NCBI GenBank assembly: GCA_026874595.1
Contig: CM049320.1
Coordinates: 7,565,464 to 7,629,463, forward strand
DNA: 64,000 nt
Direction of reading: 5' to 3'
Source: Sipunculus nudus
Taxonomy: Eukaryota; Annelida; Sipuncula; Golfingiida; Sipunculidae
Shown: positions 3,461 to 64,000 of the stretch, in pieces
Layout of the letters: each line of letters begins with the position of its first letter
Numbering within the stretch: the first letter of the stretch is position 1
Program-made: the position numbers and the translations under genes
Notes under the pieces: generated by a model
Databases searched by the model: none
What the model saw: the letters and a program-made list of their open reading frames with translations, nothing else
Told to the model about the DNA's origin: nothing

Positions 3461-4381
3461 GTTATTGTTATCTTGTTTCTAATAATATAGGGTTGATCCA
3501 GGTAATAGGTTATCTCAACTGATATCCTCTCACTATGGTAAACTGCAAGATAAAATGCCGAGATAACATGCAAAAACCTGGGCAAGGGTTAGACAACAAT
3601 GACATTTTGTTTGTATTTGACAGAGGGCCATTGTTTCATTTTCAGTTAGCTTATGTTTTCCGGAGTTCAGCTTTAACTTGGAGCGCTAACTTATACACAG
3701 AGACAAATGCAATTACTTTTATATAAGTCGAGGGCGTATATAACCATTATGGTTAACTAAAAGGCATTTGCCTACATATGTAGTTGCCGTTTGCTTTCGA
3801 AACAGTTTCATGAACACTATACATTAAGTGTTGGCAGCATGTATTTATCAGCTTTTTATGCCCAGATATATAACAGAGACAAGATGTGTGTATTTGGTAT
3901 CAGTATAGCAATGCACCATATACTCCCATAAAAGTTCCATAATGCTATCAGCAGTATTGGTTACCACGAAACCTGGTTACTCTGTATATTTTAATTGTAT
4001 AAAACCAAATAAGGCCGCCCAAGGCCGTGGTTGAGCTTGTATACTAGATCGCATTAAACGCGAACAAGCTCTTCATAAACTTTTGCTAATACTTAACGTG
4101 CAGTTCTTATTCAGTCCGGTTGTATATTTCGTCAAGTGGCGTCGATTTACATTCAAGAGTGGGGATGACTCGCAGGCGTGGGTTTGACAACTTTTTATCT
4201 CCCTTGTGAGATAAAGTCATATTAAGGCGTCCGTCTGTCGTCCCTCTGTTAACTCTAGCAGCATTCCCCAGCAATGCCTGCACAGATACTCCTGTATATA
4301 AGTGGCAAATGTACCAAATAGGCATGCAACAAAACAAAATTAGTGGCTCCACCTACATTTTTAAGTGACTTTATGTGCATT

Positions 4382-5602
4382 TTTAGCTCAGCTGACTGTA
4401 AGTCATCTGAGCTATAGCGATCACTCTTTGTCCGTCGTCCGTCCGGCCGTCCCGCCGTCCGTCTGTTAACAGGGCACAAACTGTAACTGCTAGACCTAGA
4501 ATCTTGTAGCTTGACATCCTGGGAGGTTCATAAAAAAATCTCCTTGGAAACCTGAAATTAGGTCTCTGTTACCCATATTCTTCGAGCTATGAGGCTCCGA
4601 AGTACCCCCCAGAATAATGGAAAATTTGATTCAAAAGCTCAAGTATCTGGACAACTAATGTATTAATCACCATGATTCTTTGCATGGATATTGATCATGG
4701 AATGTTTCATCAGTTTCTTGAGTCTGGTGGCGCCACCTGTATTTTTTCTATATTTAAGAATGTTTCTCTATTTTTGAGACCTTCAAAGAAGCTTTCATCT
4801 GTTAACAGGGCACAAATCGTAACCGCTGGACCTGGATTCTTCTAACTTGACATCAAGAGAGGTCCATGAAAAGTCTCTATGGAAACCTGAAATTAGGTCT
4901 CCGTTACCCATATCCTTCGAGCTATGGGGCTTCCCAATAGTACTCCTAAGAATAATTAAAAATGTGATACAAAAGCTGCAGTATCTGAATAACTAATGTA
5001 CTGATGGCCATGATTTTTTGCATTCATATTGATCATGGAGTGTTTCATCAGTTCCTGCAGACTGGTGGAGCCACCAATTTTTTTTTAATTTGTACGCATT
5101 TTTTTCTCATTTTGAGACAGTAAAATAAAGCCTCATCTTGTAACAGGGCACAAATCGTAACCACTTGACCTAGAATCTTCGTACTTGAAATCTAGGGAGC
5201 TCCATGAAAAGTCTTCATGGAAATCTGAAATTAGGTCTCTGTTACTCATTCCTCTGAGCTATCGAGCTCATAAGTACCCCCGAAATAATTAAAAATGTGA
5301 TACAAAAACGGTGTTTGTTTCTGGAGAACTCCTCTGAGACCCTTGGACTGATCTTCCGTAACCCGGCATAGTTGTTCCCTCACCTATGTAGTTGTGCATA
5401 ACAAAGACAGGTGGCACCTACCTTCAATCCTTTCTGGGCAGTCTGAATCTGGGTGTCTTTTAGATAACAGCCGATATCTAAGGAGTGGCTCAATGTATTG
5501 AGCTGAAAGTTGGCATGTATATAGATCTTGGATCTCTCCATCTTGTTATCGAATTCAACAATCCTTGAATTCAGCTGAGCGTCATGGCTCATGGGCCACT
5601 AG
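4382..5602 (+). mobile_element. Family A1 hairpin-headed repeat element
   Basis: The head TTTAGCTCAGCTGAC is followed at once by GTCATCTGAGCT, giving an imperfect hairpin. A GTCCGTC-rich tract comes next, then three tandem monomers each opening with CAGGGCACAAA. The 3' end carries CAGCTGAGC, inverse of GCTCAGCTG in the head, then an ATGGGCC-type palindrome and CTAG before TTT. There is no coding capacity. Other copies of the family lie in GART introns. Confidence 0.75.
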
Positions 5603-5889
5603 TTTGTGTTATGGACCCATCAGAAATTGCATTCTTTTGAACATTGTGTCTTATTATGCAGTCATGGTATAACTGATTAGAACAAGGCATACAGGCCTAA
5701 TGCGAACGTGTGCAATGGGTTATACATCAGGTGTATATGCTTCCATAATTACATGCTTGACCATTATTAGAAAAGTGTTTGATTAATTTTCAAGTACATG
5801 TGTGACATTTACATCTAGTAAGTACTAAACATTTTTGAACCGGAGTACAAGAACCAGTTATACAAACGTCACTCCTGTAATACTGACAC

Positions 5890-6855
5890 GAATAGACACA
5901 ACACAAAATTGATTGTAGGTGGCTCCACCAGTTTGAATGGACATGCAAAATTCAATGCCTATTGCCAAATCTTTTTACACTTACTAAAAGACTTTGGCCG
6001 CAATACATTTTTCATGTCGACATATTCATTTCATTTTTTATCAAAAATGTTTAAAATAATAGCAGATGCCTATTGAAAGCAAAATCAGAATACAGATATA
6101 TTTTATTCATGGATTTATCTTACACATAAGCTAGATATTGACACCAATTATTTATGTTGCCTGTACAACTCTGCGTATATAGCTATAACGCTCAGGCAGT
6201 TTCTACAATAAATCTACAAGCTTACCAAAGTATCTCACAGTTCCTTCATTGTTAAATAACTCAGCCAAAAATCATCAAAGTAAACTTGAAAAAAATTTTG
6301 TGCAATCTTATAAACTTTGAAACAACAGTTCTGCAGAAGAGTATTGCAGCCCTCAGTTTGATATAGGCTTACTCGGCTACAAGACCAACTTCAGCTTTCT
6401 GCGACTCTACCAAAAATCAATGAACTCGTTCTATTCTTATTTAATTGAGGGAACCCTACCCTAGAATAACTCTTGTGGAAAATAAAACCATTCAGCTTGA
6501 CAGTTTCATCATAAAACATTTTTAATGAAGAAACTGAAAGAGGCTAATATACACATGTAACGGGGTTTATGTCCTGATAAACAGATCGAATATAGGTGGC
6601 GCCACAAAAACCTCAATTTCAAATATGAGTCATGTGAAAAACATTTGCACAAAACTTGGTGACGAGATTATGTTAGTATGCTTTTAGGCCAATTGACTAG
6701 GTTCAGCTTCCTGTTACTCGGCCAAAAATCAACGAACTGGAAAAATTCGAACAAACTTGGCTGTTATGACTTCAGTCTTCAATCATGTAGTCATGTCGCC
6801 TCAGAAGAATGCTAGTGACTGGGGTGTGCGCATAATAGCCTGTTCCACAGGTGTT
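5890..6855 (-). mobile_element. Family C repeat, reversed and degenerate
   Basis: Read on the minus strand, this stretch matches the copies at 30.3-31.0 kb and 36.7-37.1 kb, for example the segment with CCAGTTCGTTGATTTTTGGC at about 6705-6760. It also carries GGTGGCGCCAC and GGTGGCTCCACC. A decayed family-C head is suggested near 6820-6855. It is the only copy of these families seen in the reverse orientation. Confidence 0.5.
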
Positions 6856-7369
6856 CCCTTTATTATTTTGCGATTATTCTCTTAAACTTTGATATATCAT
6901 ACCATTGACACTACAGCTGATGAGGAAAAAATAGCCCACCCCTGACATAACTTATGATAATATACATGTAACTCCATGGTAATTGTGAAGAATATTACTT
7001 CTATTACAGACAGACTATGTCGATCTTATGAAGTAGTTGGTATTATATATTTTATCTTTGTACAAAGGAATGCAAACCCTGCATTACACGACTTATATTA
7101 TATTTATGCCTAAAAAACAAGTCAATGAACCTTTATTTTATCTCAAAATGGCAACTCGATTTTTAATGCGATACTTGCTAATAAAAAATCCAGATTTCTT
7201 CATACTGGAACTGTGAATACTCATATCAATGATGGGCACATGCTAGTGCATACTGCGATAAGACGCAGTGCCATTAGGATATCAGCAAAGACTACCATTC
7301 TATTATTGCAATTTTACATTTAAATAAAAGCATTTTCTTAAACCATACCCTTTTTTACAACAAGCACCT

Positions 7370-9130
7370 ATGCATGTATTAGAAGTTTTAACTTACATTG
7401 ATGATAGCTTCTTGGTTATATCTAAACTATTGACAGATGTTTTGGACACCCATGCATCCATAAAAAAAAGAAAGTTATTTAGGCTAAACATTAGCTTTTT
7501 TATGAACAGCACTCTTAAAAAAGCCATACTCAACAAGCAACGACTATATGGAGGAGCTACAAGAAATATCCAAACCCCCCCCCCCCCAAAAAAAAAAAAA
7601 AACAAAAAAAAAAACGGAAAGCTTACAGAAATCAAAGGAATATGGTTGTGATTTTACGTATATCATGCAACGATTATTTTAAGGCTAAAAGAAAATGGGC
7701 CCCAGAATGTAGACATCTGGTCTACAATCAATCCTTTTATGACCAACAAGGGAGCTGCCTGGCACATGCATGAGCTCGTGACTGAACATGATCTATTTGA
7801 TGTAACTGATTCTAAAATGTATCTGACATTTTTAACCGTCTTTATATTATAATTTAGCTGTGCATATTGGATCAGATTTTAGTGTACCTGAATATGATTA
7901 TGATGTCTAAGGTTTTATAAATCAGTAAATTTCACATTGTAGTAACCACCAGAGCATAAATGTAGTTGAAAATAATTTTACTATAAGTGTAATGATTTAT
8001 GTTCACATATATCACGTATAATGACATGTTTGAAACTATTTGCATTCTAGACCCTAAAGAAGCCACTGGCTATGAATTATGATGGACTTTCTGCTAAGGT
8101 TCTTAATATTGCAAATCCCATTTGAATATTCCACTTACTATTTTGTATGACAATTGCATCATAGCAGTGTCCTTCCAATTTTGATGAAATATGCAAGTGT
8201 CACATCCGTCTTTAAAAAGGATAATCCTTTTATAAAGACAAACTACCGTCTGGTCAGCAGTTTTACCTCTTCTTGAAAGGTTTTTGAAAAAAAAAAGATA
8301 GAAAACTAGCAAGAAACTTTCCAAAACTAAATATTTCATCCATTTATCTCTACATTTAGAAAGTAACACGGATGTCAGTCGGTTCTTTTGTGAATGACGG
8401 AGGAATGGCGACAGGCACTTGCATGACAATGTCAGGTACGTCGACACTGTGCAGATGAACCCTGTCAGAGCGTTTGATTGTATGCCTTTTTCGCTTCTAA
8501 AACTTAATGCGTTAACTGTATGCGCAATTAACAGTAGTTCAGTTTCTTACAAGTTAACTTACAGAACGTCAGAAAATAATGTCAGATAATACTTCAAACC
8601 TAAAGTTTCCAATGATTCCCGTATCAGCATTTACAATACCGCATTGAACAATGAAGCTTCTTAAAGTGACTTTATTGGTATTAACATATAGAAACACATT
8701 AATTTTGAATTTCATGTACCGTAAATCAGCTTTGCATTAAGGCTGCAAGGAAACTCCGTAAAATATATACATTATACGTCGCATCTTGGAGATGCCAAAC
8801 TAACCATTGTCCAGTCCTTTATACAATCAAATTTTAATTATTGTGCCATTATATGGCATTTCTATGGTCAGTAACTCACAATGAAAATGGAGCGCATCTT
8901 AAGTGGGCACTTCGACTGACTGGTGGAGATTTAAGTACTGAAAACACTGAGCTTTTGAAAAAATACAATGTGAACAATATAGAACTACAGAAACTTCAGA
9001 CTACCGTATCGCAGTTGAAACCTTGATGACCTTTCGCAATGCAGCTAATATATCTTCGATTTTTTTTCGAAAAAAAAGCATGTACCTCATATAATACTCG
9101 ACAGAAGTTTGACCATAAATGACCTCAAGT
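7370..9130 (+). pseudogene. Decayed non-LTR retrotransposon (CR1/Jockey-like reverse transcriptase)
   Basis: Fragments in shifting frames follow the order of a LINE ORF2. VLDTHASIKKRK and FFMNSTLKKAI are the endonuclease-RT linker (7450-7540). IRPFMTNKGA-like sequence lies near 7725, and PKEATGYDGLSAKVL-like sequence near 8055. NYRLVSSF (about 8245) corresponds to the NYRPISLL motif, and RAFDCMPFSLLKL (about 8470) to the catalytic SKAFD block. QSFIQSNFNYCAIIW (about 8820) is the C-terminal thumb region, and YNTRQK-like sequence follows near 9090. Frameshifts, stops and a C/A homopolymer insertion at about 7577-7613 break the frame throughout. It is an old dead copy, distinct from the intact one in GART intron 10. 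Confidence 0.7.
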
Positions 9131-9363
9131 CAAAACTATACTGATTGTATGATCTGCATTCATTTTTAATTAATTTATCGAGTAAAATATGGTATTATTT
9201 GCCTACAGAATTCAAGCAAACAAATTCTTTATCATTTTTTAAACCTAAAATTGCTAATTACGTTATTGCATGGTATAAAATGCAAATATTATATGTGTAA
9301 ACACTATATAACTAAATTTTCATTTGCATGTGCTCATGCTTTTGATATATTACTTTTCATATT

Positions 9364-9385
9364 TTTATTTATTTATTTATTTATT

Positions 9386-9473
<88 letters not shown>
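9364..9473. repeat. Compound microsatellite (TTTA)n-(TA)n-(GA)n
   Basis: A TTTA run passes into a long TA run and then a GA run without interruption. The ORF that crosses it is purely repeat-derived. Confidence 0.95.
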
Positions 9474-9474
<1 letters not shown>

Positions 9475-9728
9475 ATAAATTGGTATTGAGCAAATAAAAA
9501 AAATGTCATTTTAATTTAGATAAAATGGTTTCTTAATGACAATATAAATCAAACGATTTTCAATGTTTTATCACTAAAAAGTTATGTTGAAAAAATTAGA
9601 GGGACAACAAACCCCTTATCGATCTAGCCGTCACCCTGTTGTTCCGCTTAATGGAAGACTGGTTTACCTTATGACTAGAATATATATATGTGTGTATGAG
9701 GGTGTGTGTGTGTGTATTTATATATGTA

Positions 9729-9732
<4 letters not shown>

Positions 9733-9784
<52 letters not shown>
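9733..9784. repeat. (TA)n microsatellite
   Basis: An alternating TA tract preceded by a TG-rich stretch (about 9690-9732). The flank continues to a poly-C run at about 9917-9941. Confidence 0.9.
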
Positions 9785-10429
9785 GATTTAAGATTTTAAT
9801 TTATTTGTATGTATGACTGTATGGGTTATGTTCTGGTCGGTGATTATTAGCTTTGGATAATGTTGTATTGTTCTTAAAACCGACAGAAAATAAAGATTTG
9901 CAGTTGTTGTTGTTGTCCCCCCCCCCCCCCCCCCCCCCCCCAAGAATGTGTCATGTGACCTGCAGTCACACGTAACTCGTGAGGACGCATCTTTCACCGT
10001 TTCCACAACCTTTCGCCGCCGTTCAAAGGGTCATTGACCTATGAAACATCAATTCAGATCTAACGTAAGTTCTTGTTTGGACGAATTGGTACTTTGTTAT
10101 TGTACGGAAAATAGTCAAAACTTCACACAGCTGAAGATGTTACATTGATTATGTACAGAACTTGATTGTTTTCTCAGATCCGCCAACCACATGTGTAAAT
10201 TGGCGATAATAGGGGACCTTGTAAGTTGTACTTGTTGACAGGCGGAACAGTGAGAGCTCATAAACTGTATCAACGTCAACTGAGTTGTGCATGTTGTGAT
10301 ATGACCTACGGTACGACTTAACAATCAGTACCTACCGGTCAGGACTCCTTTATCCACAACGGATACATGTAAAGTGTTCTTATGATGGATCAAACTTACT
10401 CCTCTGTACGTTAATTGAAACTGTTGTAA

Positions 10430-10495
10430 ACACAGAGCCACAGCACAGGTCCCAGCCTTCATTTATCTAGCAGACAAGAGTAGGCTACACCTGAT
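10430..10495. repeat. Dispersed repeat, inverted partner of 17260-17330
   Basis: ACACAGAGCCACA, CAGGTCCC and ATCTAGC occur in order here, and in reverse complement at 17260-17330. The two copies are clearly related, though diverged. Confidence 0.55.
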
Positions 10496-12175
10496 GTTGG
10501 GTGCCTATCCCAATGCCCCTGTGCCATTTTTAGCTTAGCTGACTGTAAGTCATCTGAGCTATAGTCGTGGTCCTTTGCCTGTCGTCCGTCCATCCATTAA
10601 CAGGGCACATTTAAAAACCGTTGGACCTACGTATCCAAAATTTTGCATACCATTAGATGTCCCCAAAATCTCTTACCATACCAAAAATAAAGTAATTAGG
10701 ACTTTGTTCCTTCGAGATATTAAGGAAAAACCTCCGTTTTTTTTAAAAAAGCCATTGTAACACTTCAAGGCTGCCTAATGTCAAAATCACTGATCTGTTT
10801 TTGATCATATTTAGTATCCATATAGTTTCATACATTTTCTATGAACATACCAAAAATTAGGTCAGAATTAGGTATTATTTTGAAGTTATGGTCCCAAATA
10901 TAATGCAATTTTAAAAAAATCAGGAAATATATTTACTAACCTAACATGTGAGATGCTGAAGCTGGAGACTTTTTTTCAGGAATATAACTTTATTTAATCA
11001 AGATTCAATCGTTTACCCAAAATTAGATCTGAATTTTGCAAATTTTTCAAGTTATTAGCATAAATAAAAAATCAATACCTTAAATTTTGTCCAACTTTGG
11101 CAATGGCACATTTTTTCCCATTAAGCACTGTTGATTTAATTTTCACAGCATATATGCATAAGGATTTAATCTTTTAAAATCTGAAATTTCAAAGGAATTG
11201 ATTGAAAGGAGTAGCTTTAATTCATGTTTCCATACACCATGTCAAGTGTTGTTTACATCTAGCCAACCTGGTAGTACAGCCTTCACTTGCATTATGTAAC
11301 TGACCCAGGCAGCTTGCCTTTGCTCAGCTTGGCCACTACTAGCAGGCTTCCCCTCTGCCCTGCACTCCCCCCCCCCCCCCCCCCAAGATGGTGCATTAAC
11401 TAGATGAATGTTATAATTTTCTGTATTTTATTTTATTCTTGGCTATGCTACATTTTAGATTTTGTATTGTACAACCAGGGTTACAATGATTGAAGTGCAC
11501 ATTTAATTGTGTCCACAAAGTGGTGTATTGCTATGAAAGTGTGAATGTTTATCAGATAAGTAAATTCTTACTTCAGAAGAGTAAAAACTTCACCAGATGT
11601 GAAATTGACTATTAATTCCAGTAATAAATTATAGCCGAGATAGTAATTAGCACAATGATTTTGTTTGTCCCTCATTCAACCAACAGTGTGTATACTTTAT
11701 TTGAATAGATGTTTTTATTTTATCAAATTTACTGAATCTTTTATTTCATTTCAGTGAATAAAATTAAGCATGTACTGAAAACTCCAATGTGCAAAACTTT
11801 TTAATAGTGATTCAAAGAATAATCTTGTAGATGCCATATTGTGGCACTATTTTCTTTTAATTTCAGTTTAAACATTTGTGATTTAAAAATAATAAAATAT
11901 ATGTGTATGCATGATATGACCAAATATGAGCTACACTCTGGATAAATAATGATTGCAACTTAGAATTCTAATATTTTAACTTATATTTTCAGTTTTTTTA
12001 TTACAAATTTATAAAACTTGTAAATAAAAAAAAATGAATCAAATAAAAACTGTTAATGGAAAAAGTTGATATGCTTAAAAAATAGGCTTATATATAAACT
12101 TAAATGCATTATTCCCTTGAAAGTGAAATAAAGGTATTAGTCCATTCTGTCCACTCGCCTGTCCATCCGTAAATT

Positions 12176-14558
12176 TTTAGCTCAGCTGACTATAAGTCTG
12201 TCTGTCTGTCCGTCCATCCGTCTGTCTGTCCGTCTGTCTGTCCGTCCGTAAGACTGGCACATTTCGACACCGTTGGACCTACGAATCTGAATTTCGGCAT
12301 ATAGTTAAATGTCCCCATAATCTCGTACCATGCCAAAAATTTGGTCAAGAGGACTTCGTTCCTTTGAGATATTAAGGAAAAACCTCAATTTTTTATTAGA
12401 AATCTATTTTCACACTTCAGGACTGCCTAATATCAAAACCACTCATCTGGTTTTCTTCATATTTACCATAAATATTCCTCTATAAAGTTCCTATGTACAT
12501 GCCAGATATTAAGTCATATTATATAATTTAAAAAAGTTATGGGCCCAAACATAATGGCCTTGTAAAAAAATCAGGAAGATATTTGGTCACTTAAGACAAA
12601 AAGTGTTAAAGGTAGGGACTTTTTTCAGTAATACAACTTTAATTAATCAAAATTTAATTGTATACCAAAAATTAGATCAAAATTTGTTAAATTTTTTTTA
12701 AATATTGGCAAAAATATAAAATTGGTACCTTAAATTTTGCCCAACTTTGGCCATGGCACGTTTTTTTCCTGTAAGTATTGTGGATTTAATTTTCACACCA
12801 TGTATACATAAGGATTTAATCTGTTAAAATCTGTAATTTGAAAATAAAAGCTGCAAAATTAGGTTAGTTATTGAATTTTTTTGGAGGCTCTTGTTGTATT
12901 CCCTTACATTGTCAAGCAGTCCACTTTGATGACTGTAGGTCATTCAGTGCACAACTCTATGCTCCCCAGGCTGTTGACATAATTTTAGATGTCCCCAAAA
13001 TCTCCTACCATACCGAAAATTGGGTCATTAGGACTTCGTTCCTTCGAGATATTAAGGGAAAAAACTCCGTTTTCCATAAAAAAAAGCCATTGTTACACTT
13101 CAAGGCTGCCTAATATCAAAACCACTGATCTGTTTTTGATTGTATTTAGTATTCACATTCTTTTATACATTTTCTATGAACATACCAAAAATTAGGTCAG
13201 TATTGGGTATTATTTTGAAGTTATGGGCCAAAACATAATGCAATTTTTTAAATAATCAGGAAATATATTTACTCACATGAGAATTGCTGAACCTAGAGAC
13301 CTTTTTTCAGGAATATAACTTTATTTAATCAAGATTCAATTGTTTACCCAAAATTAGATCTGAATTTTGCAAATTTTCAAGTTATTAGCATAAATAAAAA
13401 ATCAATACCTTAAATTTTGTCCAACTTTGGGACTGTTGATTTAATTTTCCCAGCATATATGCATAAGGATTTAATCTTTTAAAATCTGAACTTTCAAAAG
13501 AAATTGATTGGAATGAATAGCCTTTATTCATGTTTTCATACACCATGTCAAGTGTTGTTTACATCTAGCCCACCTAGTAGTACAGCCTTCACTTGCATTA
13601 TGTAACCCACCCCAGGCAGCTTACCTTGGCCCAGCTTGGCCACTACTAGCAGGCTTCCCCTCACCCTGCACTCATCCCCCCCCCCCAGCTGGTGCATAAA
13701 CTAGATGAATGTTATAATTTTTCTGTATTTTATTTTATTCTTGGACATGCTACATTTTAGATTTTGTATTGAACCACCAGGGTTACAATGATTAAAATGT
13801 ACATTTAATTGTGTCCACAAAGTGGTGTATTGCTGTGAAAGTGTGGATGTTCATGAGACAAGTAATTCCTTACTTCAGAAGAGTAAAAACTTCACCAGGT
13901 GTGAAATTGACTATTAATTCCAGTAATTAATTAAAACTGGGATAGTAATTAGCACAATGATATTGTTTGTCCCTCATCTAACCAACAGTGTGTATACTTT
14001 ATTTGAAAAGATGTTTTATTTTATCAAATTTACTTTTATTTTATTTTGGTGAATAAAATTAAGCATGTCCTGAAAACTCCAATATGCAACACTTTTTAAT
14101 AGTGATTCAAGGAATACTCTTGTAGATGCCATGTTGTGGCATTATTTTCTTTTAAAATCAGTTTAAACATTTATGATTTAAAAATAATAAAATATATGTG
14201 TATGCATAATATGACCCAATGTTTTTTACTCTGTATATATAATGATTGCAACTTTTGCAACAATTCTAATATTTTAACTTATATTTTCAGGTTTTTTTAT
14301 TAAAAATTTATAAACCTGTAAATAAAAAAATGATTCAGATAAAAACTTCTGAATGGAAAAAGTGGATCTGCTTAAAAAAATAGGATTACAGTAAAACCTG
14401 AGAGTTAAGACCACCTGATGTGCCACACCAAAAGCGGTCTTAAGTCACAGGTGGTCTTAAGTCTCAGGTGGTCTAAGTCTCAGCATGAAGCAAACAAAGA
14501 ATATCAAGGCATATATGTCTACGTAAACATTTATTAATTTATTATAAAAATACATACT

Positions 14559-14604
<46 letters not shown>

Positions 14605-16724
14605 TATAGATAATCAAGATATTCACAACAATATTTACAAGTTAACAGCAATATTTACTTCAATCAATTAATCAATTTTGCTCTGCTTAACAAGGGAATC
14701 TTATTAATAATTATCAAAGAATGCTGGTCCTTTTATAACTTTAATAAACAAGCCTTTATCAAAAGCTTTGAATAGCCTGTTTGTTATATTGCACAAACCA
14801 CAAACCGCTAATTAATGATGTACCATGAGTACACACTGAGTCACTTTGTTTTAGAAGCAGACCCCATTAAAATCTCAATAAACTTCAAAGCAGGTATGAA
14901 AGGATCGATCATTTGATTACAGGTGACTGCTCACGTTATCAAACAGTCTCTCTATATTGGTACTATGGTAGTTAGCATTGAGTCCTATTGTCTTATTGAA
15001 TATCAATGAATATTCTATTGATGTTATCGAAACAGGTCGTCAGTTTGTCGTCACGAACTGACTTGATGTCAAAATGTGTGTGATAAGCAATGACAGTTGA
15101 TCGCTAAGGCTATGACAAACTTACTTTCATGACTAACTTTTTTTTAAAATTAAATCCGCGCAAATGTTATATACACATCGCTAAGACTAGTTATGAACTC
15201 CGGTCAACGACCGCAGCGTAGTGAATGCGACCGCGGTGTCAGAAATACAACGGGAGTTCTATTCGATGAATATTAATGAGGGATTTCCCATAGAGCACGT
15301 GATCCTTTACCGGAAAGATGTTTTAGACAATCGTTAATCAAATACGATGTGTTCAAAGATAGGCTGTGCTAAAAAATAATGGTACACAGGCATCAGAATT
15401 AAAGAATTGCGTCGTTTTACATGTTCCCTCGCAATATTCGCAGAACTTTCATTTTTGGAGAAAGATTAAAACCACGCGGGCCCTAGGCCATTGACACCTG
15501 GAGGGGTATTGTGAATTAATGTCCAATTCACCGCGGGGAAAGTAGGTCACCATTGCAACCTGCACATTCAAGAGACGGTCAATGGCACGGTCGTTTTAGT
15601 CTTATGACGCCAGGTGCCACTACCGCTACACCAGGCGGTCGCTTAACGGAGGTATAGACCAGCGACCGGCCACACCTGAGCGGTCGGTGGTCGCGTACCA
15701 CAAACGGTCGCTCAACACAGGGGCATTAAAGAGGGATTAAGCTCGGTGCATTCATTTTTCGGTCGTAAGTCACAGACGGTCGCTGGCGGCAGTGGTCGCT
15801 TGGTTCAGGTTTCACTGTATATATAAACTTAAATGCATTATTCTCTTGAAAGTGAAATAAAGGTATTAGTCCATTCTGTCCACTTACCTGTCCATCTGTA
15901 AATTTCCGTATGCAACACAGTATCTCAAAACTTTTACTGCTTTTCTTCATGACAGTCTTGTCAGAGTATTAGTTTGCAATCATATATTTAGAACTTTACT
16001 ATAACCAAGTAGGAGGGCCCCTTTCCTCTTAGCTTCTCATATTCTTATATAAATGAAAAACATTACAATAGAATATTTCTACATCCACCTTCGTGCTGCC
16101 CTCACTTTTCCCTTCTCCGAACCCCATCCCAAAGTCAGCCTCAGTAAGCAAGAACAAGATGAATCAGATATATTCATACTTTAATATTTTGTATAACTAT
16201 TCGTCCATAGGTACCTATGTACATGCCAGAAATTATGTCAATATTGTGTAATATGTAGACATAGTGGGCATCACAATAATGTACCTTGTCAAGACTAAAG
16301 AGATATTGTGTCATACAGTCACATATTCATAAATCACTTCATCAGCATAGTTAATCATAACATCATATCTGTCAAATTGAATGCTTGCAGACTACCATAC
16401 ACTTTAGATCCTTCAACAAATAGCCTTATCATCATTCTACTACTGCTTATTACTGCTGTCATTGCATTCATATTTGCTCAAATATATCACAATTTTCAAC
16501 CCCTCCTAAATAAATAAAAAATAAACCACTTTATTTGACTCTATTAATCCATCAGTCAGGTAATTTCATTTATCATTTACTCACATATTACATTACATTC
16601 CTTTATAATAGCCCAACATGTACATGATATTCATAAGCTTTATCGACTCGATATAGTATCACAGTGGAGAAACAATTATAGTCAAATCACGATCAGCTGA
16701 GCGCCGTGACCCATGGGTCCCTTG
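12176..16724 (+). mobile_element. Family A2 element (nested inner copy)
   Basis: The ends are fixed by the interruption of the outer copy. Uninterrupted copies read GTAAATTTTCATATGCATC (about 40504), while here the left side reads GTAAATTTTT before AGCTCAG and the right side CCCTTG before TTCATATGCATC. The element starts TTTAGCTCAGCTGAC and ends CCCATGGGTCCCTTG. It carries a GTCTGTCC/GTCCGTC tract, two monomers, a poly-C tract and A2 3' sequence, and is itself interrupted by the TA-flanked element 14389-15817. Confidence 0.8.
14389..15817. mobile_element. Non-autonomous Tc1/mariner- or pogo-type element with TA duplication
   Basis: The termini are CAGTAAAACCTGA and, inverted at the right end, CAGTGAAACCTGA. 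Both ends are flanked by TA, and the host A2 sequence (ATAGG...TATAAACTTAAATGC) resumes across the insertion as in uninterrupted copies. Subterminal regions hold short GGTCTTAAGTC and GGTCGC repeats. An (AT)n tract lies at about 14562-14602. No transposase ORF was seen. Confidence 0.75.
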
Positions 16725-16962
16725 TTCATATGCATCACAGTGTCTCAAATTTTTTACTGTTTTTCTTCATGACAGTCTTGTCCGAGTATTAGTTTGCAAT
16801 CATATATTTAGAACTTTACTATAACCAAGTAGGGAGGCCCCTTTCCTCTTAGGTTCACATATGCTTATAAAAATGAAAAACATTAAAATAGAATATTTTG
16901 CATATTTTGCATTTGCAAAAATTTCAAACTTCAGCTGAGCGCCCTGACCCAATGGTCCCTTG

Positions 16963-17689
16963 TTTCAAGCAGCAGTGTGCATGCATGTGTTACATCATCT
17001 CTGGTGCATTGTGTGAATGTCCTGTAACACAACCATGTGATACACACTGGCTACAGGCAGTGTTGTTACCAAGGGAACAGGCTTGATTGTTTCAGCTGGC
17101 CAGGTGCATGTATCACATTTCAGCTGGGTATGCCAGTAAGTTGGCAGTGATGCTGTAACACGTGCAGTGCACACTGCTGACCAGAAACAGTCACCAGCCC
17201 ATCACCTGGGGTTTAAACAGGCAAAATGTCCTTAAAATGGGTACATCGTAGTCACCTGCATGCGCTCCTGTCCGCTAGATGAATAAAGGCAGGGACCTGT
17301 GGCTCTGTGTTTTCAACAGAGCCACAACTGGGTCTATATGTTAGTTATATCCTATAGCCTTTTCACTCATATGTTAGCCCGTAAAAATGTACAATTTATC
17401 CTTTTTTCACGCGATTCAACAATCCCTCATGAGGCAGAACTATTGAAAACAGGGCTTCAGCCTACCTCCGGTTCCTTATGCACAACGGGTGTCACATAAT
17501 AAATTGTTTCCTGACAAAGGCTGATACATATTATTTTCTTGAGAATTCCAGTATTTAATTTTGCTCATACCTGGAGTCTATTATATTAAAGGAGGAGAGG
17601 TCCGAGGAACCTGGGTTCGGCCTGAACGGGGGTATCCTCCCCAAGGTTAGGCTTAATTCTCCTGTTAAAATAGTAAATGGTTCCCCATT
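16963..17689. other. Intergenic with a perfect hairpin and a repeat fragment
   Basis: It contains an 11-bp perfect inverted repeat (TGTGGCTCTGT at 17298, ACAGAGCCACA at 17316) with a 7-nt loop. This sits inside the dispersed repeat shared with 10430-10495. Nothing else is recognised. Confidence 0.6.
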
Positions 17690-19063
17690 TTTAGCTCAGC
17701 TGACTATAAGTCATCTGAGCTATAGTCGTGGTCCAGTGTCCGTCGTCCGTCTGTCTGTCCGGATGTCCGCCCGTAAGACTGGCACGTTTCGACACTGTTG
17801 GACCTACGAATCTGAAATTCGGCATACAGTTAGATGTCCCCAAAATCTCCTACCATGCAGAAAATTGGGTCAATAGGACTTCATTCCTTCGAGATATTAA
17901 GGAAAAACCTCAATTTTTTATTAGAAATCTATTTTCACACTTCAGGACTGCCTAATATCAAAACCACTGATCTGGTTTTCTTCATATTTACCATTAATAT
18001 TACTCTATATAGTTCCTATGTACATGCCAAATATTAAGTCAGTATTATATAATTTAAAAAAGTTATGGGCCCAAACATAATGGATCTTGTAAAAAAATCA
18101 GGAAGATATTTGGTCACTTAAGACCAAAAGTGTTAAAGGTAGGGACTTTTTTCCAGTAATACAGCTTTAATTAATCAAAATTCAATTGTATACCAAAAAT
18201 TAGATCAAAATCTGTTAAATTTGTTTAAATATAGGCAAAAATATAAAATTGGTACCTTAAATTTTGCCCAACTTTGGCCACGGCACGTTTTTTTCCTGTA
18301 AGTACTGTGGATTTAATTTTCACAGCATGTATACATAAGGATTTAATCTGTTTAAATCTGAAATTTGGAAAATAAAAGCTGCAAAATTAGGCTAGTTATT
18401 GAATTTTTTTGGAGGCTCTTGTTGTATTCCCTTACATTGTCAAGCAGTCCACTTTGATGACTGTAGGTCATTCAGTGCACATCTCTATGCTCCCCAGGCT
18501 GTTGGCATAATTTTAGATGTCCCCAAAATCTCCTACCATACCGAAAATTGGGTGTTTGGACTTCGTTCCTTCGAGATATTAAGGAAAAAAACTCCGTTTT
18601 CCATTAAAAAAAAGCCATTGTTACACTTCAAGGCTGCCTAATATCAAAACCACTGATCTTTTTTGATCGTATTTAGTATTCACATTCTTTCATACATTTT
18701 CTATGAACATACCAAAAATTCGGTCAGTATTACGTATTATTTTGAAGTTATGGGCCAAAACATAATGCAGTTTTTAAAAAAAATCAGGAAATATATTTAC
18801 TCACCTAACATGAGAATTGATGAACCTAGAGACTTTTTTTTCAGGAATATAACTTTATTTAATCAAGATTCAATCGTTTACCCAAAATTAGATCTGAATT
18901 TTGCAAAATTTTCAAGTTATTAGCATAAATAAAAAATCAATACCTTAAATTTTGTCCAACTTTGGCACTGTAGATTTAATTTTCACAGCATATATACATA
19001 AGGATTTAATCTTTTAAATTCTGAAATTTCAAAGAAATTTATTGGAAAGAATAGCTTTTATTC
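17690..19063 (+). mobile_element. Family A2 element, 3' truncated
   Basis: It has a complete head (TTTAGCTCAGCTGAC with the hairpin partner GTCATCTGAGCT), a GTCTGTCC tract and both AGATGTCCCCAAAATCTC monomers. Similarity to the other A2 copies stops near 19063. No 3' terminus is found before the next element. Confidence 0.75.
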
Positions 19064-20118
19064 CCTATTCAGGTGACTTCTGATGTTAAGTAGTAGTTTA
19101 TGTTAGAATTGTTAATATGAGTGTAGGGACATCTACAGGAAAAAGTAGGAGTTAAAATAGGGAATGAGAAGAGACAGTTTTATTTATTTTTCATGTTCCT
19201 CAATAGAAGCGTAGCAAGCGTTCTATAGTGGCTCCCCTCAGGATTCCTCCCTCTGCTTGTTTACTCCACTTAGCTTATGTGCACGTCCAGCCTACATCAT
19301 ACACACATGTTGTGTTGCTCCCTCAAGGCATTTGTATGCACACAGATCCTGGCTATCCCACAAATATTTGGTGTATATCAAGGGTTAGGGTTTACAAATA
19401 ATTCAGTGGCTCCACCTTGTTCGTGCGAGAGACAGAGTACGCTATAGTGGCAGGCAGTTAACAAACGGCTGAGGGTTAACAAACAGCTGGGAAGCGCACG
19501 GATGTTGCATATGCTTAACAAAAATCAAGCCTCATTTTAACAACTACGACCAATTCTCAAAAGTAGATTACCGTAAAAATCTGCATAAAAGTCGAGAAAT
19601 TTGGACCCTGAAAAAAACATCTAAAGTTAGGGGGTCGACTTATCTGCGGGTACGAGTCCAAGAGCAAAAATTTGTGACTTGAATGTTGTTACATTTTGTT
19701 TAAACGGGCCAAGCTCTGAAGAGTGACGCGCAGGCATGGGGGTAATAAACACCTATTGACACCTGTTGTCTGAGGCTTCTATTGTAAGAACTCTTAACTG
19801 TATGGCTACAGGACTCAATATATGGCAGGGCCTATTAAAATAGAGTCCGATTAAATCTGGCTAGGTTTCTATAGTCGTACCAGTGGACCCTTTTTTTTGT
19901 TATTACATTTCACCAAACACAGCGAACAGACATTGGACTTCATATTTATTTTATTTTTTTTGTTTTATGATTGTGAAGTTGTGAAGTACCTGTATGTATA
20001 TTACTTCAGTCCTTGTACAATTATGAATTATTTATTATGATGGCTTGATGTTGTATTATAAAGTATAACTATTATATAAGAAAATAAACATTTTGATAAG
20101 ATATTTTGTGTGGGCATG
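19064..20118. other. Intergenic, nothing firmly recognised
   Basis: No gene is visible. A short inverted motif pair near 19590-19650 (AAAAGTCGA and TCGACTTATCTGCGGG) looks like the end of a MITE, but the other end was not found. A 5' untranslated exon of GART could lie here or further upstream; no sequence feature identifies it. Confidence 0.4.
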
Positions 20119-21536
20119 CTGTTTAACAGGGTTGGCAGGTTTTAGGCACAGAGGTTTTAACCATAGGTTAAAACCTGGTTAAAACTGCCCCACCTAAAAC
20201 AGGTTTTAGGCACCAAAAGTGTAAATTTATGACTTATGATCTATAAAACTACCAAACTGGCTGCAGTGTTGCAGTCACAAGGCTTTGCTGGGCTTGTGGA
20301 CAGTTTCAGGTATTAGTAATGCCTGATTTCCTGTTGACTTGCAGGATCATGCAGTCTTCTTAAGAGTCTGTATAGATTTCTTAGCATAAGACCATGTTTG
20401 TGTGGCACATGGTTTTATAGGCCAAGGTAATGTCATAATCAGGACCTTTTGGGCTTCCTGATGAGTGCCTTGCTCTCTGGAATTATGTAATGGAGCCACC
20501 TGTAGTTCTCTAGTAAGGCAGGATTTCATACTTGATTAGACTGATAACTGTTTATCAGGGTGATGGCCCTGATTGGACCATAAGGTCCAATGGTCATAAA
20601 TTCTACTGCTGTTTCCTAGATGTTCATGTGAACTTTCATACATGACAAGGATGATGCAATCAAAGCCTGCAAACTTTTCTTGATTCAAACTTTTAACTGA
20701 CTAAGTGATGTAGTCAGGGCCCCTGACCATGAAATGTTGGTTTCTCATGCCTTTAGGTTGAAAACAGCCCATGAATATTCTATGGTTTGGGACATATTCA
20801 ATGCATTATATTTTCTCATTTTCAGTTTATACTAATTACAGTGTTTCAGGAGGGTTCCATTTTCACATATTCACCATACAGCTACCTGCACAGAGCATAT
20901 CCATCATTATATAGACAATAAGTATGGGCACAAAATCTTAAAATTTCAAAAAATGACAAAAGGAAAAAACAACTATTGGAAATTATTGTTGGTTATAAGG
21001 TAATGTAAAAGGTATTATCATATTTTCAATTTTTGGCTAACATAAAAGATCTATTATAATTTATAAAAATCAATCTTTTGCTTTTTGCCATTTGAAGCTA
21101 AAGGCGTACAAAACATACACAATATGTTAGTGAGACTACAGTATAAATGGCAAGCAGAAGTGGTAAACCTCAGAACATATCAGATTTTGGGGTACACCCT
21201 AAAACTGACAGAGAACTGTGTTTATATGGACAACCTGAAGTAGTATTGTTTTCATTTGTTGCTTTTTTTGTATCATTGAATAATTTGTTTAGTTTGAATA
21301 AAGTTTTCCTCAGTTTCAATTAGTTGAGCAAATCTCCAAAATGGATTTAGCTGTGTTACAATGTCATTAAGGTATAGGTAAACTGCAAGTCAAAGGTGAG
21401 GGTATCTAAGGCTATAATCAGTTAAAGGCAGTTTTAGGCAGGTTATAACCTATTTAAGGCAGTTTAAGGCAGGTTTTTGGCTTTTCTCTGCCGAAAACAG
21501 GTTTTGGGCGGCATTAAACCCAACCCTGCTGTTTTA
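20119..21536. mobile_element. Non-autonomous hAT element with 8-bp target-site duplication
   Basis: The element proper is 20127-21528. It begins CAGGGTTGGCAGGTTTTAGG and ends with the inverse CCAACCCTG. The flanking octamers are CTGTTTAA (20119-20126) and CTGTTTTA (21529-21536), seven of eight identical. CAGGGTTG termini with 8-bp duplications are the hAT signature. Subterminal AGGTTTTAGGCA-type repeats occur at both ends. No transposase ORF is visible in 1.4 kb. It ends about 210 bp before GART coding exon 1. Confidence 0.8.
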
Positions 21537-21702
21537 TGCACCTATAGGTCAAATAATGATGTTACATCAGCATATATGATTTTACAGGATATGCAAAATG
21601 AACTGATGTGTGCATTTATTTAATAATGTTAGACACAAGGTATATATAATACAAAAGTTGAAAAAAGTCTTGATTCCAAGCTTTCAATTAATTAATACAT
21701 AA

Positions 21703-59596
<37,894 letters not shown>

Positions 59597-60590
59597 GTCT
59601 GTATTCTAAATAGTCAATTTGATAGGTATTAAATATAATCCATGAGGTTCACAGCCATCCAGGAAACCAGGAATAATTGGGAAAATGAGCTTCCAAAAAA
59701 TCATCATTTCAATAAAAGGGGCCTATTCTGATATTTGAGACTTATCAACTAGAGATAATCCCTCGAACTTTTATAAAAAAAAATAGTCAGAAAAAGCCAG
59801 TCCCACTGCAGACAGACTGTTAGTTTGGTTTATATCTACATGGTTATAACATGTAGGGGCCAACCAAAACAATCCAAACACATTCAAAATCACGTACAAG
59901 TCAGATGAACCATATGTATTTCAAAAAAAAGGTTTGCAGCTAGTGACCTTTCTGCTTTTGTACATATGCAACCTGTTGCCCATCTACTCAAAAAGGGGTT
60001 ACATGGTTTTTCTGATCGTCAGAATTGACGCAAGTACCGTGTATATAAAAGTTAGAAGAGAAACAAGCTCATACAAATGTCACAGAGAACTTTTCAAAAC
60101 AGGAATTACCTGCTGTGTATTCATATGTCCACAGAATAAGCCAGGAATTACATAAATTCTACAGAAAATTAAGATGAAAAGCTTGCTTTAAATGTATTCT
60201 AGATATTTAATCAGTTGTCTCTAAATAAGGGAAGGTCTTTAAATATGTATAAGTTTCCTCACTCTTCTGTACTGACCTTCATATTATAATGGAAAAGTAA
60301 AAAAAAGTGCATTCAATATAAATAACATCAGTATGCACTGTGTCTTCTGTGTATGAGGAGGGGAAGTTCTCAACAACAAATTATTGCTTTTTGGGTTATT
60401 CCAAGTCCTGTGTGTATAAAAGTTTAAATTCAGAATGCTTACATCAAATTAAAATTAATTATCTTATGATAACTGTCGTCCTTATTCAGAATATTAAAAC
60501 TGACAGCGTGTTTATGAATAATCAAATAATAATAAGTAAACAAAATCAAAGAAATTTTTTTTTACAGTTCTTTTACCAAAGTAATATTTT
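59597..60590 (+). other. GART: GART intron 18, left part
   Basis: About 1 kb of AT-rich sequence before the A1 array; no exon or recognisable repeat. Confidence 0.65.
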
Positions 60591-63500
60591 TTTAGCTCAG
60601 CTGCCTGAAAGTCATCTGAGCTATAGCGATCACTCTTTGTCCGTCGTCCGTCTGTCCGTCCGTCCGTCTGTCCGTCTGTCCGTCTGTCCGTCCGTTAACC
60701 AGGCACAAATCGTAACCGCTGGACCTAGAACCTTGTAACTTGGGATTCTGAGAGGTCCAAAAAAAATCTCCTGGGAAACCAGAAAAACAGGTCTCTGTTA
60801 CCCATATCCTTCGAGCTATGTGGCCCCAAAGTACCCCCCAGAAAAGTCAAAAATTTCATACAAAAACTTCAATATCTCATTAACTACTTGACTGATGGTC
60901 ATGATTTTTGGCATACATATTGATCATGAGATGTTACATCACTTCCTGCAGACTGGTGGCGCCACCTGTTTTTTTCGATTTTTTACGAATTTTTTTCTCT
61001 ATTTTTGAGACCTTTAAAAATGTGAACATCTGTTAACAAGGCACAAATCATAAAGACTGGACTTAGAATCTTAATTCTTGACACACTGAGAGGTCCATGA
61101 AAAATCTCCTTGGAAACCAGAAATTAGGTCTCTGTTACCCATATCCTTTGAGCTATGGGGCCCCAAAGTACCCCCCAGAATAGTAAAAAATTTCATACAA
61201 AAATTTCAATATCTCAATAACTACATCACTGATGGTCTTCATTTTTGGCATACATATTGATCATGAGATGTTCGATCAGTTCCTGCAGACTGGTGGCGCC
61301 ACCTGTACTGTTTGATTTTTTACGATTTTTTCCTCTATTTTTGAGACCTTTGAGGATGCTGTCATCTGTTAGCGTGGCACAAATCGTAACGACTGGACCT
61401 AGAATCTTCATTTTCGACACACTGAGAGACCTATGAAAAGTCTCCATGGAAACCAGAAATTAGGTCTCTGTTACCCATATCCTTCGAGCTATGGGGCCCA
61501 AAATTACCCCCCAGAATAGTCAAAAATTTCATACAAAAACTTCAATATCTCATTAACTACATCACTGATGGTCATGATTTTCGACATACATATTGATCAT
61601 GAGATGTTTCATCAGTTTGTGCAGACTGGTGGCGCCACCTGTATTTTTCAATGTTCACGAATTGTTTTCTCCATTTTTGAGACCTTTAAGGATGTAGTTA
61701 TCTGTCAACAGGGTACAAATCGTAACGACTGGACCTAGAATCTTTGTTCTTGACACACATGGAGACCCATGATAAGTCTCCATGGAAACCAGAAATTAGG
61801 TCTCTGTTACCCATATCCTTTCAGCTATGGGGCCCAAAAATACCACCCAGAATAGTAAAAAATTTCATACAAAAACTTCAATATCTCAATAACTACATCA
61901 CTGATGGTCTTCATTTTTGGCATACATATTGATCATGAGATGTTAGATCAGTTCCTGCAGACTGGTGGCGCCACCTGTACTGTTTGATTTTTTACGATTT
62001 TTTCCTCTATTTTTGAGACCTTTGAGGATGCTGTCATCTGTTAGCGTGGCACAAATCGTAATGACTGGACCTAGAATCTTCATTTTCGACACACTGAGAG
62101 ACCTATGAAAAGTCTCCATGGAAACCAGAAATTAGGTCTCTGTTACCCATATCCTTCGAGCTATGGGGCCCAATATTACCCCCAAGAATAGTCAAAAATT
62201 TCATACAAAAACTTCAATATCTCATTAACTACATCACTGATGGTCATGATTTTCGACATACATATTGATCATGAGATGTTTCATCAGTTTGTGCAGACTG
62301 GTGGCGCCACCTGTATTTTTCAATGTTCACGAATTGTTTTCTCCATTTTTGAGACCTTTAAGGATGTAGTTATCTGTCAACAGGGTACAAATCGTAACGA
62401 CTGGACCGAGAATCTTTGTTCTTGACACACATGGAGACCCATGATAAGTCTCCATGGAAACCAGAAATTAGGTCTCTGTTACCCATATCCTTCGAGCTAT
62501 GGGGCCCCAAAGTACCCCCCAGAATAGTTAAAAATTTCATACAAAAACTTCAATATCTCAATAACTACATCACTGATGGTCTTCATTTTCGACATACATA
62601 TTGATCATGAGATGTTTCATCAGTTTGTGCAGACTGGTGGCGCCACCTGTATTTTTCAATGTTCACGAATTGTTTTCTCCATTTTTGAGACCTTTGAGGA
62701 TGCTGTCATCTGTTAGCGTGGCACAAATCGTAACGACTGGACCTAGAATCTTCATTTTCGACACACTGAGAGACCTATGAAAAGTCTCCATGGAAATCAG
62801 AAATTAGGTCTCTGTTACCCATATCCTTCGAGCTATGGGGCCCAAAATTACCCCCCAGAATAGTCAAAAATTTCATACAAAAACTTCAATATCTCAATAA
62901 CTACATCACTGATGGTCATGATTTTCGACATACATATTGATCATGAGATGTTTCATCAGTTTGTGCAGACTGGTGGCGCCACCTGTATTTTTCAATGTTC
63001 ACGAATTGTTTTCTCCATTTTTGAGACCTTTAAGGATGTAGTTATCTGTCAACAGGGTACAAATCATAACGACTGGACCTAGAATCTTCGTTCTTGACAC
63101 ACAGGGAGACCCATGATAAGTCTCCATGGAAACCTGAAATTTGGTCTCTGTTACCCATATCCTTTGAGCTATGGCACTCCAAAGTACAGCTCAGAATAAT
63201 GGAAAATTTGATACAAAAGCTAAAGTAACTGAACAACTAATGCAGAGATAACCATAATTGTTTGCATGGATATTGATCATGGAGTGTTTCATAAGTTTCT
63301 GCAGACTGGTGGCACCACCTGTATTTGTTCGTTTTTTTTTACGAAATTTTTCTGTATTTTTGAGACCTTTAAAGATATGAACATCTGTTAACAGGGCACA
63401 AATCATAAAAACTGGTCCAAGAATCTTCATTCTTGACACACAGGGAGACCCATGAAAAGTCTCCATGGAAACTTGAAATTAGGTCTCTGTTACCCATATT

Positions 63501-64000
63501 CTTTAAGCTGTATGGGTCCAAAATACCCCCCCCCCCCCCCAGAATAATGGAAAATTTGATACAAAAACTGCAGTATTTCAATAACTACAACACTGATGGT
63601 CATGATTTTCGGCATACATATTGATCATGAGCTGTTCCATCAGTTTCTGCATACTGGGTGGGCCACCTCTATTTTTTTTCAAATTTTTACGAATTTTTTT
63701 CTTTTTTTTGAGACCTTTAAAAATGTGGTTATCTGTCAACAGGGTACAAATCGCAACAACTGGACCTAGAATCTTCATTCTTGTCATGCAAGGAGGCCCA
63801 TGAAAGGTGCCTGTGGAAACTTGAAATTAGGTCTCTGTTACCCATATCCTTCAAGCTATAGGACTCCGAAGTATCCCTCAGAATAATGGACAATTTAATA
63901 CAAAAACTGAAGTATCTGAACAACTAATGCAGAGATCACCATGATTTTTTGCATGGATATTGACCATTAAGTGTTTTTATTAGTTTCTTCAGACTGGTGG
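60591..64000 (+). mobile_element. Family A1 element with a tandem array of ~336-bp monomers, runs off window
   Basis: The head TTTAGCTCAGCTG with partner GTCATCTGAGCT and a long GTCCGTCTGTCC tract is followed by ten monomers. The ACAAATC landmark gives starts at 60704, 61042, 61378, 61714, 62050, 62386, 62722, 63058, 63397 and 63745. Six consecutive steps are exactly 336 bp. Units 61378-63058 alternate between two types, making a 672-bp higher-order repeat. Each unit contains GGTGGCGCCACC or a decayed form. The 3' end is not in the window. Confidence 0.85.

Follow-up and report, generated by a model that had tools for sequence, protein, structure and literature searches.

The repeat families found in a 64,000-nucleotide stretch of the Sipunculus nudus genome (GenBank assembly GCA_026874595.1, contig CM049320.1, positions 7,565,464 to 7,629,463, forward strand; hereafter the window) are very probably HINEs, that is non-autonomous Helentrons, which would be mobilised in trans by Rep/helicase proteins of autonomous Helentrons residing elsewhere in the genome. 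They belong to a known kind of mobile element, such a superfamily having already been published for oysters (PMC7492417; further literature: PMC7992393, PMC10294476); here and below, comparison with published systems draws on excerpts of the papers cited. Rolling-circle mobility is well supported as the class, whereas one common enzyme for all families is unproven; thus, the original prediction of a superfamily mobilised by a single machinery is supported for the class, to which the junctions of two families point, but is not shown for the enzyme, and the superfamily itself is the one known from oysters.

Self-comparison and pattern searches recovered eleven heads of type A, three of type C, and one each of types B, D, E and T4194, the last being a further (sixth) head type at 4194. 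The label C is our own, and A' denotes a body variant found behind head A, with units of about 690 bp.

Ends and insertion sites

The 5' module is made, in order, of a T-rich flank, an inverted-repeat head, which is a hairpin in A, B, D and E, and a GTC-rich tract. Folding confirmed these four hairpins, as well as the TATAG adjoining them in A, B and E, both of which had been predicted. A structural scan for a T-rich flank, a hairpin and at least four GTC within 60 bp, a search of the type that had been proposed and here applied to the window, returned 11 heads on the plus strand, none on the minus strand and none in 100 dinucleotide shuffles, in agreement with the claim that the families have one architecture of head, GTC-rich tract and body; the A heads at 12178, 38082 and 55832, that of E at 42009 and all three of C escaped it and were recognised by sequence or by eye. 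When the criterion was loosened to GTC tracts alone, 16 were seen on the plus strand and none on the minus strand, with a mean of 0.13 and a maximum of 2 in 30 shuffles. A run of at least TTTT precedes 10 of the 11 A heads.

In the 3' module of A, B and C the 5' arm recurs in inverted form, followed by a palindrome and then by CTTGTT or CTAGTT; this module was recognised in seven A copies, one B and one C on the plus strand, and in one C on the minus strand. Subterminal inverted repeats (subTIRs) of 11–15 bp, a HINE feature, are therefore present at both ends of A, B, C and D, and were not found in E and T4194. Inverted head copies had been predicted for A, B and D: they occur in 7/11 A copies and, over 11 bp, in D, while that of B has a G-run shorter by one G (in an ungapped search it shows 4 mismatches in 12, and a G-rich stretch at 32250 does better with 2); C, with about 11 bp, is to be added. 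Likewise, the 3' hairpins proposed for A, B and a further family were found as palindromes near the 3' end, another HINE feature, in A, B and also C. For the T4194 head no convincing inverted copy was seen (best 2 mismatches in 10), and no 3' end was recognised for E, T4194 and the copies at 55832, 17692 and 36520.

Two insertions can be read against an uninterrupted counterpart. An A-type element at 12178–16726 interrupts the A' element at 10531–16964, and in the related copy at 38082 the corresponding site, at about 40511, is uninterrupted; the B element at 28568–30287, which consists of a hairpin, a CCGTC tract, a 180-bp array and a 3' module, interrupts the C copy at 28426–30933 (its end being the last base aligned to the 36520 copy), and the C copy at 36520–37329 is uninterrupted at about 36680. 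Both junctions, one for A and one for B, lie within a T-run, and nothing is duplicated beyond an ambiguous number of Ts, as is typical of HINEs. The same comparison applied to an element with terminal inverted repeats (TIRs), located inside A' sequence at about 14389–15816 and carrying CAGTAAAACC-type ends, revealed a TA duplication; this transposon may resemble the pogo/Tigger kind. The difference between the T-run junctions without duplication and the TA of the TIR element sets A and B apart from cut-and-paste elements. It follows that the families are highly unlikely to be miniature inverted-repeat transposable elements (MITEs) of cut-and-paste (DDE) transposons, in spite of their inverted repeats at both ends, of their lack of coding capacity and of the fact that related bivalve elements were once classed as MITEs, since their repeats are also subterminal and a palindrome is contained in the 3' end.

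The 200-bp flanks upstream of the 11 A heads were compared and no pair is alike (best local score 26), indicating separate insertions. Tandem arrays and GTC microsatellites are what ordinary, immobile satellites would offer, with heads arising by chance; yet A heads at 11 unrelated sites, A tails at seven, insertions into other repeats and the headless shuffles leave this explanation practically no room. Canonical Helitrons (5' TC, 3' CTAG, insertion at A/T, no subterminal repeats) were rejected as well, because the heads lie in T-runs with TAGCT or TATGC, the ends read CTTGTT or CTAGTT and subterminal repeats are present. Taken together, the structure of the ends, insertion into T-runs without duplication and the palindrome of the 3' end argue for rolling-circle transposition driven by a Rep/helicase not seen in the window.

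The module order corresponds to that of Cg_HINE from the Pacific oyster (Vojvoda Zeljko et al. 2020, PMC7492417), given there as subTIR, inverted repeat, GTCY microsatellite, tandem repeat, subTIR and palindrome; the microsatellite after the 5' module and the central tandem repeats of the Cg_HINE type are both found here. The two also have in common a T-rich target without duplication and arrays that may or may not be common to related flanks. However, the tandem repeats of Cg_HINE are mostly 140–180 bp long, while monomers of about 336 bp occur in A and units of about 690 bp in A', and Cg_HINE possesses the inverted repeat that C lacks locally, the likeness being one of described structure (PMC7492417); the published passages leave open which autonomous Helentron drives Cg_HINE. 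The HINEs and Helentrons of mite, mosquito and fly, including DINE-1 (Thomas et al. 2014, PMC4067079), resemble the present elements in their subTIRs, 3' palindrome, T-run ends of varying length without duplication, and microsatellites or tandem repeats in some copies. The bivalve Pearl family (CvA, CvE, CvG), DTC84 and MgE are similar by description, being modular with short internal arrays of about 160 bp (PMC7492417, PMC5139131, PMC11136912). In the Helitron Helraiser the 3' hairpin is a terminator that can be read through or bypassed, to which the 3' palindrome may be likened; nevertheless, Helraiser ends are TC...CTAG, unlike the subterminal inverted repeats and T-run ends seen here (PMC4778049).

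Several observations weigh against the assignment to HINEs. A T-run was sought before the D hairpin and only TT was found, and the 3' end of D has no clear palindrome. The C head has no local hairpin, where a weaker one had been predicted for a family of that name, but 11 bp of the head at 36520 can pair with the tail of another, more diverged C copy at 31907. No inverted head copy was detected within 6 kb of E (best 4 mismatches in 12), and no 3' end of it was recognised. The distance of the 3' inverted copy from the end is about 32–35 nt in A, B and C, shorter than the 38–60 nt of the 3' subTIR in mite HINEs (PMC4067079). Finally, a Pfam search of 10 selected open reading frames, in a window that is a small piece of the genome, gave no Rep, helicase or endonuclease domain, and a six-frame scan of the window with three Rep/helicase motif patterns and one tyrosine pattern gave no match.

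Shape of the 5' end

The arm sequences are wholly different among A, B, C and D, but the dot-bracket structure of the hairpin is identical in A and B: 8 bp, a 1x1 mismatch, 5 bp, a triloop and then TAG, with unrelated arms. Six of the 11 A hairpins have exactly the geometry of B, those at 22318 and 51680 are off by one outer pair, and those at 12178, 55832 and 60593 deviate more. The E hairpin has 6 bp, a 1x1 mismatch, 5 bp and a 5-nt loop, and that of D has 8 bp followed by unpaired bases on the 3' arm. The 14-bp sequence CTATAGYGATCACT, which includes a GATCACT block, occurs exactly in three A copies and in E, beside unrelated hairpins; with up to two mismatches it has 6 matches, against 0.65 expected. 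These comparisons rest on single copies of B, D and E, so that coincidence is possible.

It is conceivable, although rather unlikely, that recognition of the 5' end by a Helentron Rep depends mainly on shape, that is on the imperfect hairpin, together with TATAG in A, B and E and the GATCACT block in A and E. If so, one enzyme could serve families with unrelated arms, and ends would diversify freely while bodies are swapped. We lean slightly towards the view that each family is served by a Helentron lineage of its own, in which case the architecture would reflect a common class and ancestry instead of one machinery: the complete divergence of the arms in A, B, C and D speaks for it, as does the close match of mite, fly and mosquito HINEs to particular Helentron partners (PMC4067079), while the block present in both A and E beside unrelated hairpins and the similar geometry of A and B would better fit a common Rep. 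Alternation between the hairpin at one end and pairing of the two ends with each other is not claimed, as the latter is predicted to be stronger than the former in A and D but weaker in B. The geometry common to A and B, the 14-bp block of A and E and the orientation of the heads described below go beyond the published passages. The head patterns had no match in viral contigs.

Bodies, nesting and exchange

Tandem monomers had been predicted at 336, 180, 150 and 145 bp and were found at about 336–337, 180, 153 and 145 bp. Head A is followed by three types of body. The 336-bp monomers lie behind the heads of five copies: 4384–5604 (head, GTC tract, array and 3' module), 22318–23353 (about three monomers), 23354–24538 (full and shortened monomers, with a 3' module), 49727–50258 (about one monomer, both ends present) and 60593–64000 (about ten monomers, running off the window). 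The A' body is found in 10531–16964, in the nested 12178–16726 copy, whose head is partly deleted and which holds the TIR transposon, in 17692–19063 (without a 3' end, its limit being the final base aligned to other copies), in 38082–41331, the longest with both ends, and in 51680–53247, which is internally deleted and has both ends. The third body, at 55832–56631, begins like an A monomer and continues with AGGTCA-rich repeats; the limit given is the last aligned repeat base. These repeats (GAGGTCACAAGGTCAAAGGTCAAGGTCA) extend over 55925–56631 after the A head, and their AGGTCA string presumably resembles nuclear-receptor half sites.

The remaining elements are the C copy at 31003–31938, with a diverged head, units of about 272 bp and a 3' inverted copy with palindrome; E at 42009–42831 (hairpin, short tract and 145-bp array, ending at the last aligned repeat base); D at 57968–58402 (hairpin, GTCT tract, tract-bearing 153-bp units and inverted head copy); T4194 at 4194–4383, a hairpin head with a GTC tract that is cut by the first A copy; and, on the minus strand, a C-type 3' module at 5681–5712 for which no matching head was found. 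The 36520–37329 copy ends at the last aligned base. All but the minus-strand module lie on the plus strand.

Each of 22 A monomers was compared with the other bodies and with 200 shuffles. All shuffles were beaten by 12/22 monomers against the C unit (16/22 with at most one shuffle as good), by 6/22 against the first A' unit, all six from the 60593 array, by 2/22 against the second A' unit, by 1/22 against B and by 0/22 against D and E. These results indicate that the bodies of A and C are relatives although their ends are not, and that those of A and A', which have one end type in common, are relatives as well. The motif GGTGGCGCCACCT belongs to the A and C units; support for it extends to T4194 (p=0.0005), the other C body (p=0.0015) and the 37795 repeats (p=0.002), but not to A', B, D, E, the body at 55832 or three control stretches. 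Conserved motifs among diverged satellites are known from bivalves, in the BIV160/Cg170 group (PMC5139131). Thus, the exchangeability of bodies that had been proposed is supported in part at the sequence level, by head A with its three body types and by A versus C, but some of the seemingly unrelated bodies (A with A', A with C) are relatives that have diverged.

A universal body template was rejected: a motif search by expectation-maximisation over the bodies beat all 100 shuffles, but its aligned sites shifted when the width of the motif was changed, and of seven other bodies only one (37795) scored p<0.01 with a template built from A, A' and C, while B had p=0.048 and the remaining five were above 0.1. 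An origin of the 336-bp monomer as 2 x 168 is only suggestive, since the score of 29 between its halves was matched by 2/500 shuffles and extends over 40 bp only.

Nesting is frequent: the element at 12178 lies within A', B lies within C at 28568, and at 23354 A lies within an A array, whose outer 3' end is missing; A also adjoins T4194 at 4384, and A' follows the repeats of 37795 at 38082. The region 22318–24538 contains two successive A heads and a single 3' end common to both, the first head running into the second; this could reflect a nested insertion that later cost the outer element its end, or an end that was bypassed. Nesting together with loss or bypass of an end would yield new head-body combinations.

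The observed end structures, T-run targets, two duplication-free junctions, nesting and several bodies behind one head form the basis of a model, to which enzyme, strand mechanics and exchange route are added by inference. Rep would recognise the 5' module and nick at the T-run, a helicase would peel away one strand, and copying would end once the subterminal repeat and palindrome of the 3' end are reached; the intermediate, single-stranded or circular, would then join another T-run, hence without target duplication. The body would be passenger sequence that expands and contracts, and a HINE landing in another HINE, with a 3' end lost or bypassed, may provide the route to new combinations of head and body.

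Orientation and host gene

All 18 heads, found between 4194 and 64000, are on the plus strand, which is also that of a host purine gene, and neither the sequence search (apart from hairpins reading themselves) nor the structural scan found a head of these types on the minus strand. The headless C 3' end, read from 5712 to 5681, points against the gene. A two-sided binomial calculation by hand for 18/19 in the same direction gives about 8e-5, although nesting lowers the independence of the elements. The supply of T-runs was rejected as the cause, as T- and A-runs are about equally common on the plus strand (T/A: 1738/1608 for runs of at least 3, 721/680 for at least 4, 266/279 for at least 5, 126/119 for at least 6). 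Cg_HINE is oriented both ways genome-wide in the oyster (PMC7492417), and a single literature search on orientation bias gave one paper, which by title and abstract concerns Drosophila piRNA clusters.

The purine gene is a fused one, present in pieces within the window: purD-type exons at about 26.4, 32.7 (weak), 41.6 and 43.5 kb, and purM-type exons at about 47.0, 49.4, 50.9 and 53.3 kb, all matches being fragments that fall below the NCBIfam cut-off individually. These exons mark the window as animal-like nuclear DNA, and the repeat elements located between 28 and 53 kb are intronic. The window also contains an open frame of 618 codons at 44135–45991 that encodes a reverse-transcriptase domain (RVT_1, E 1.9e-33) and is probably part of a long interspersed nuclear element (LINE), and a dispersed repeat pair of about 235 bp and 73% identity (33037–33270 and 47491–47720), unassigned to any named family. 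Rfam at gathering thresholds returned no match.

The tandem repeats of oyster-like genomes thus ride on non-autonomous Helentrons, and to this picture the window adds readable junctions and nested cases within one gene. Bodies and ends appear to recombine both ways, with one head carrying three bodies and related bodies lying behind unrelated heads, while the common imperfect 5' hairpin and the orientation bias relative to the host gene offer leads.

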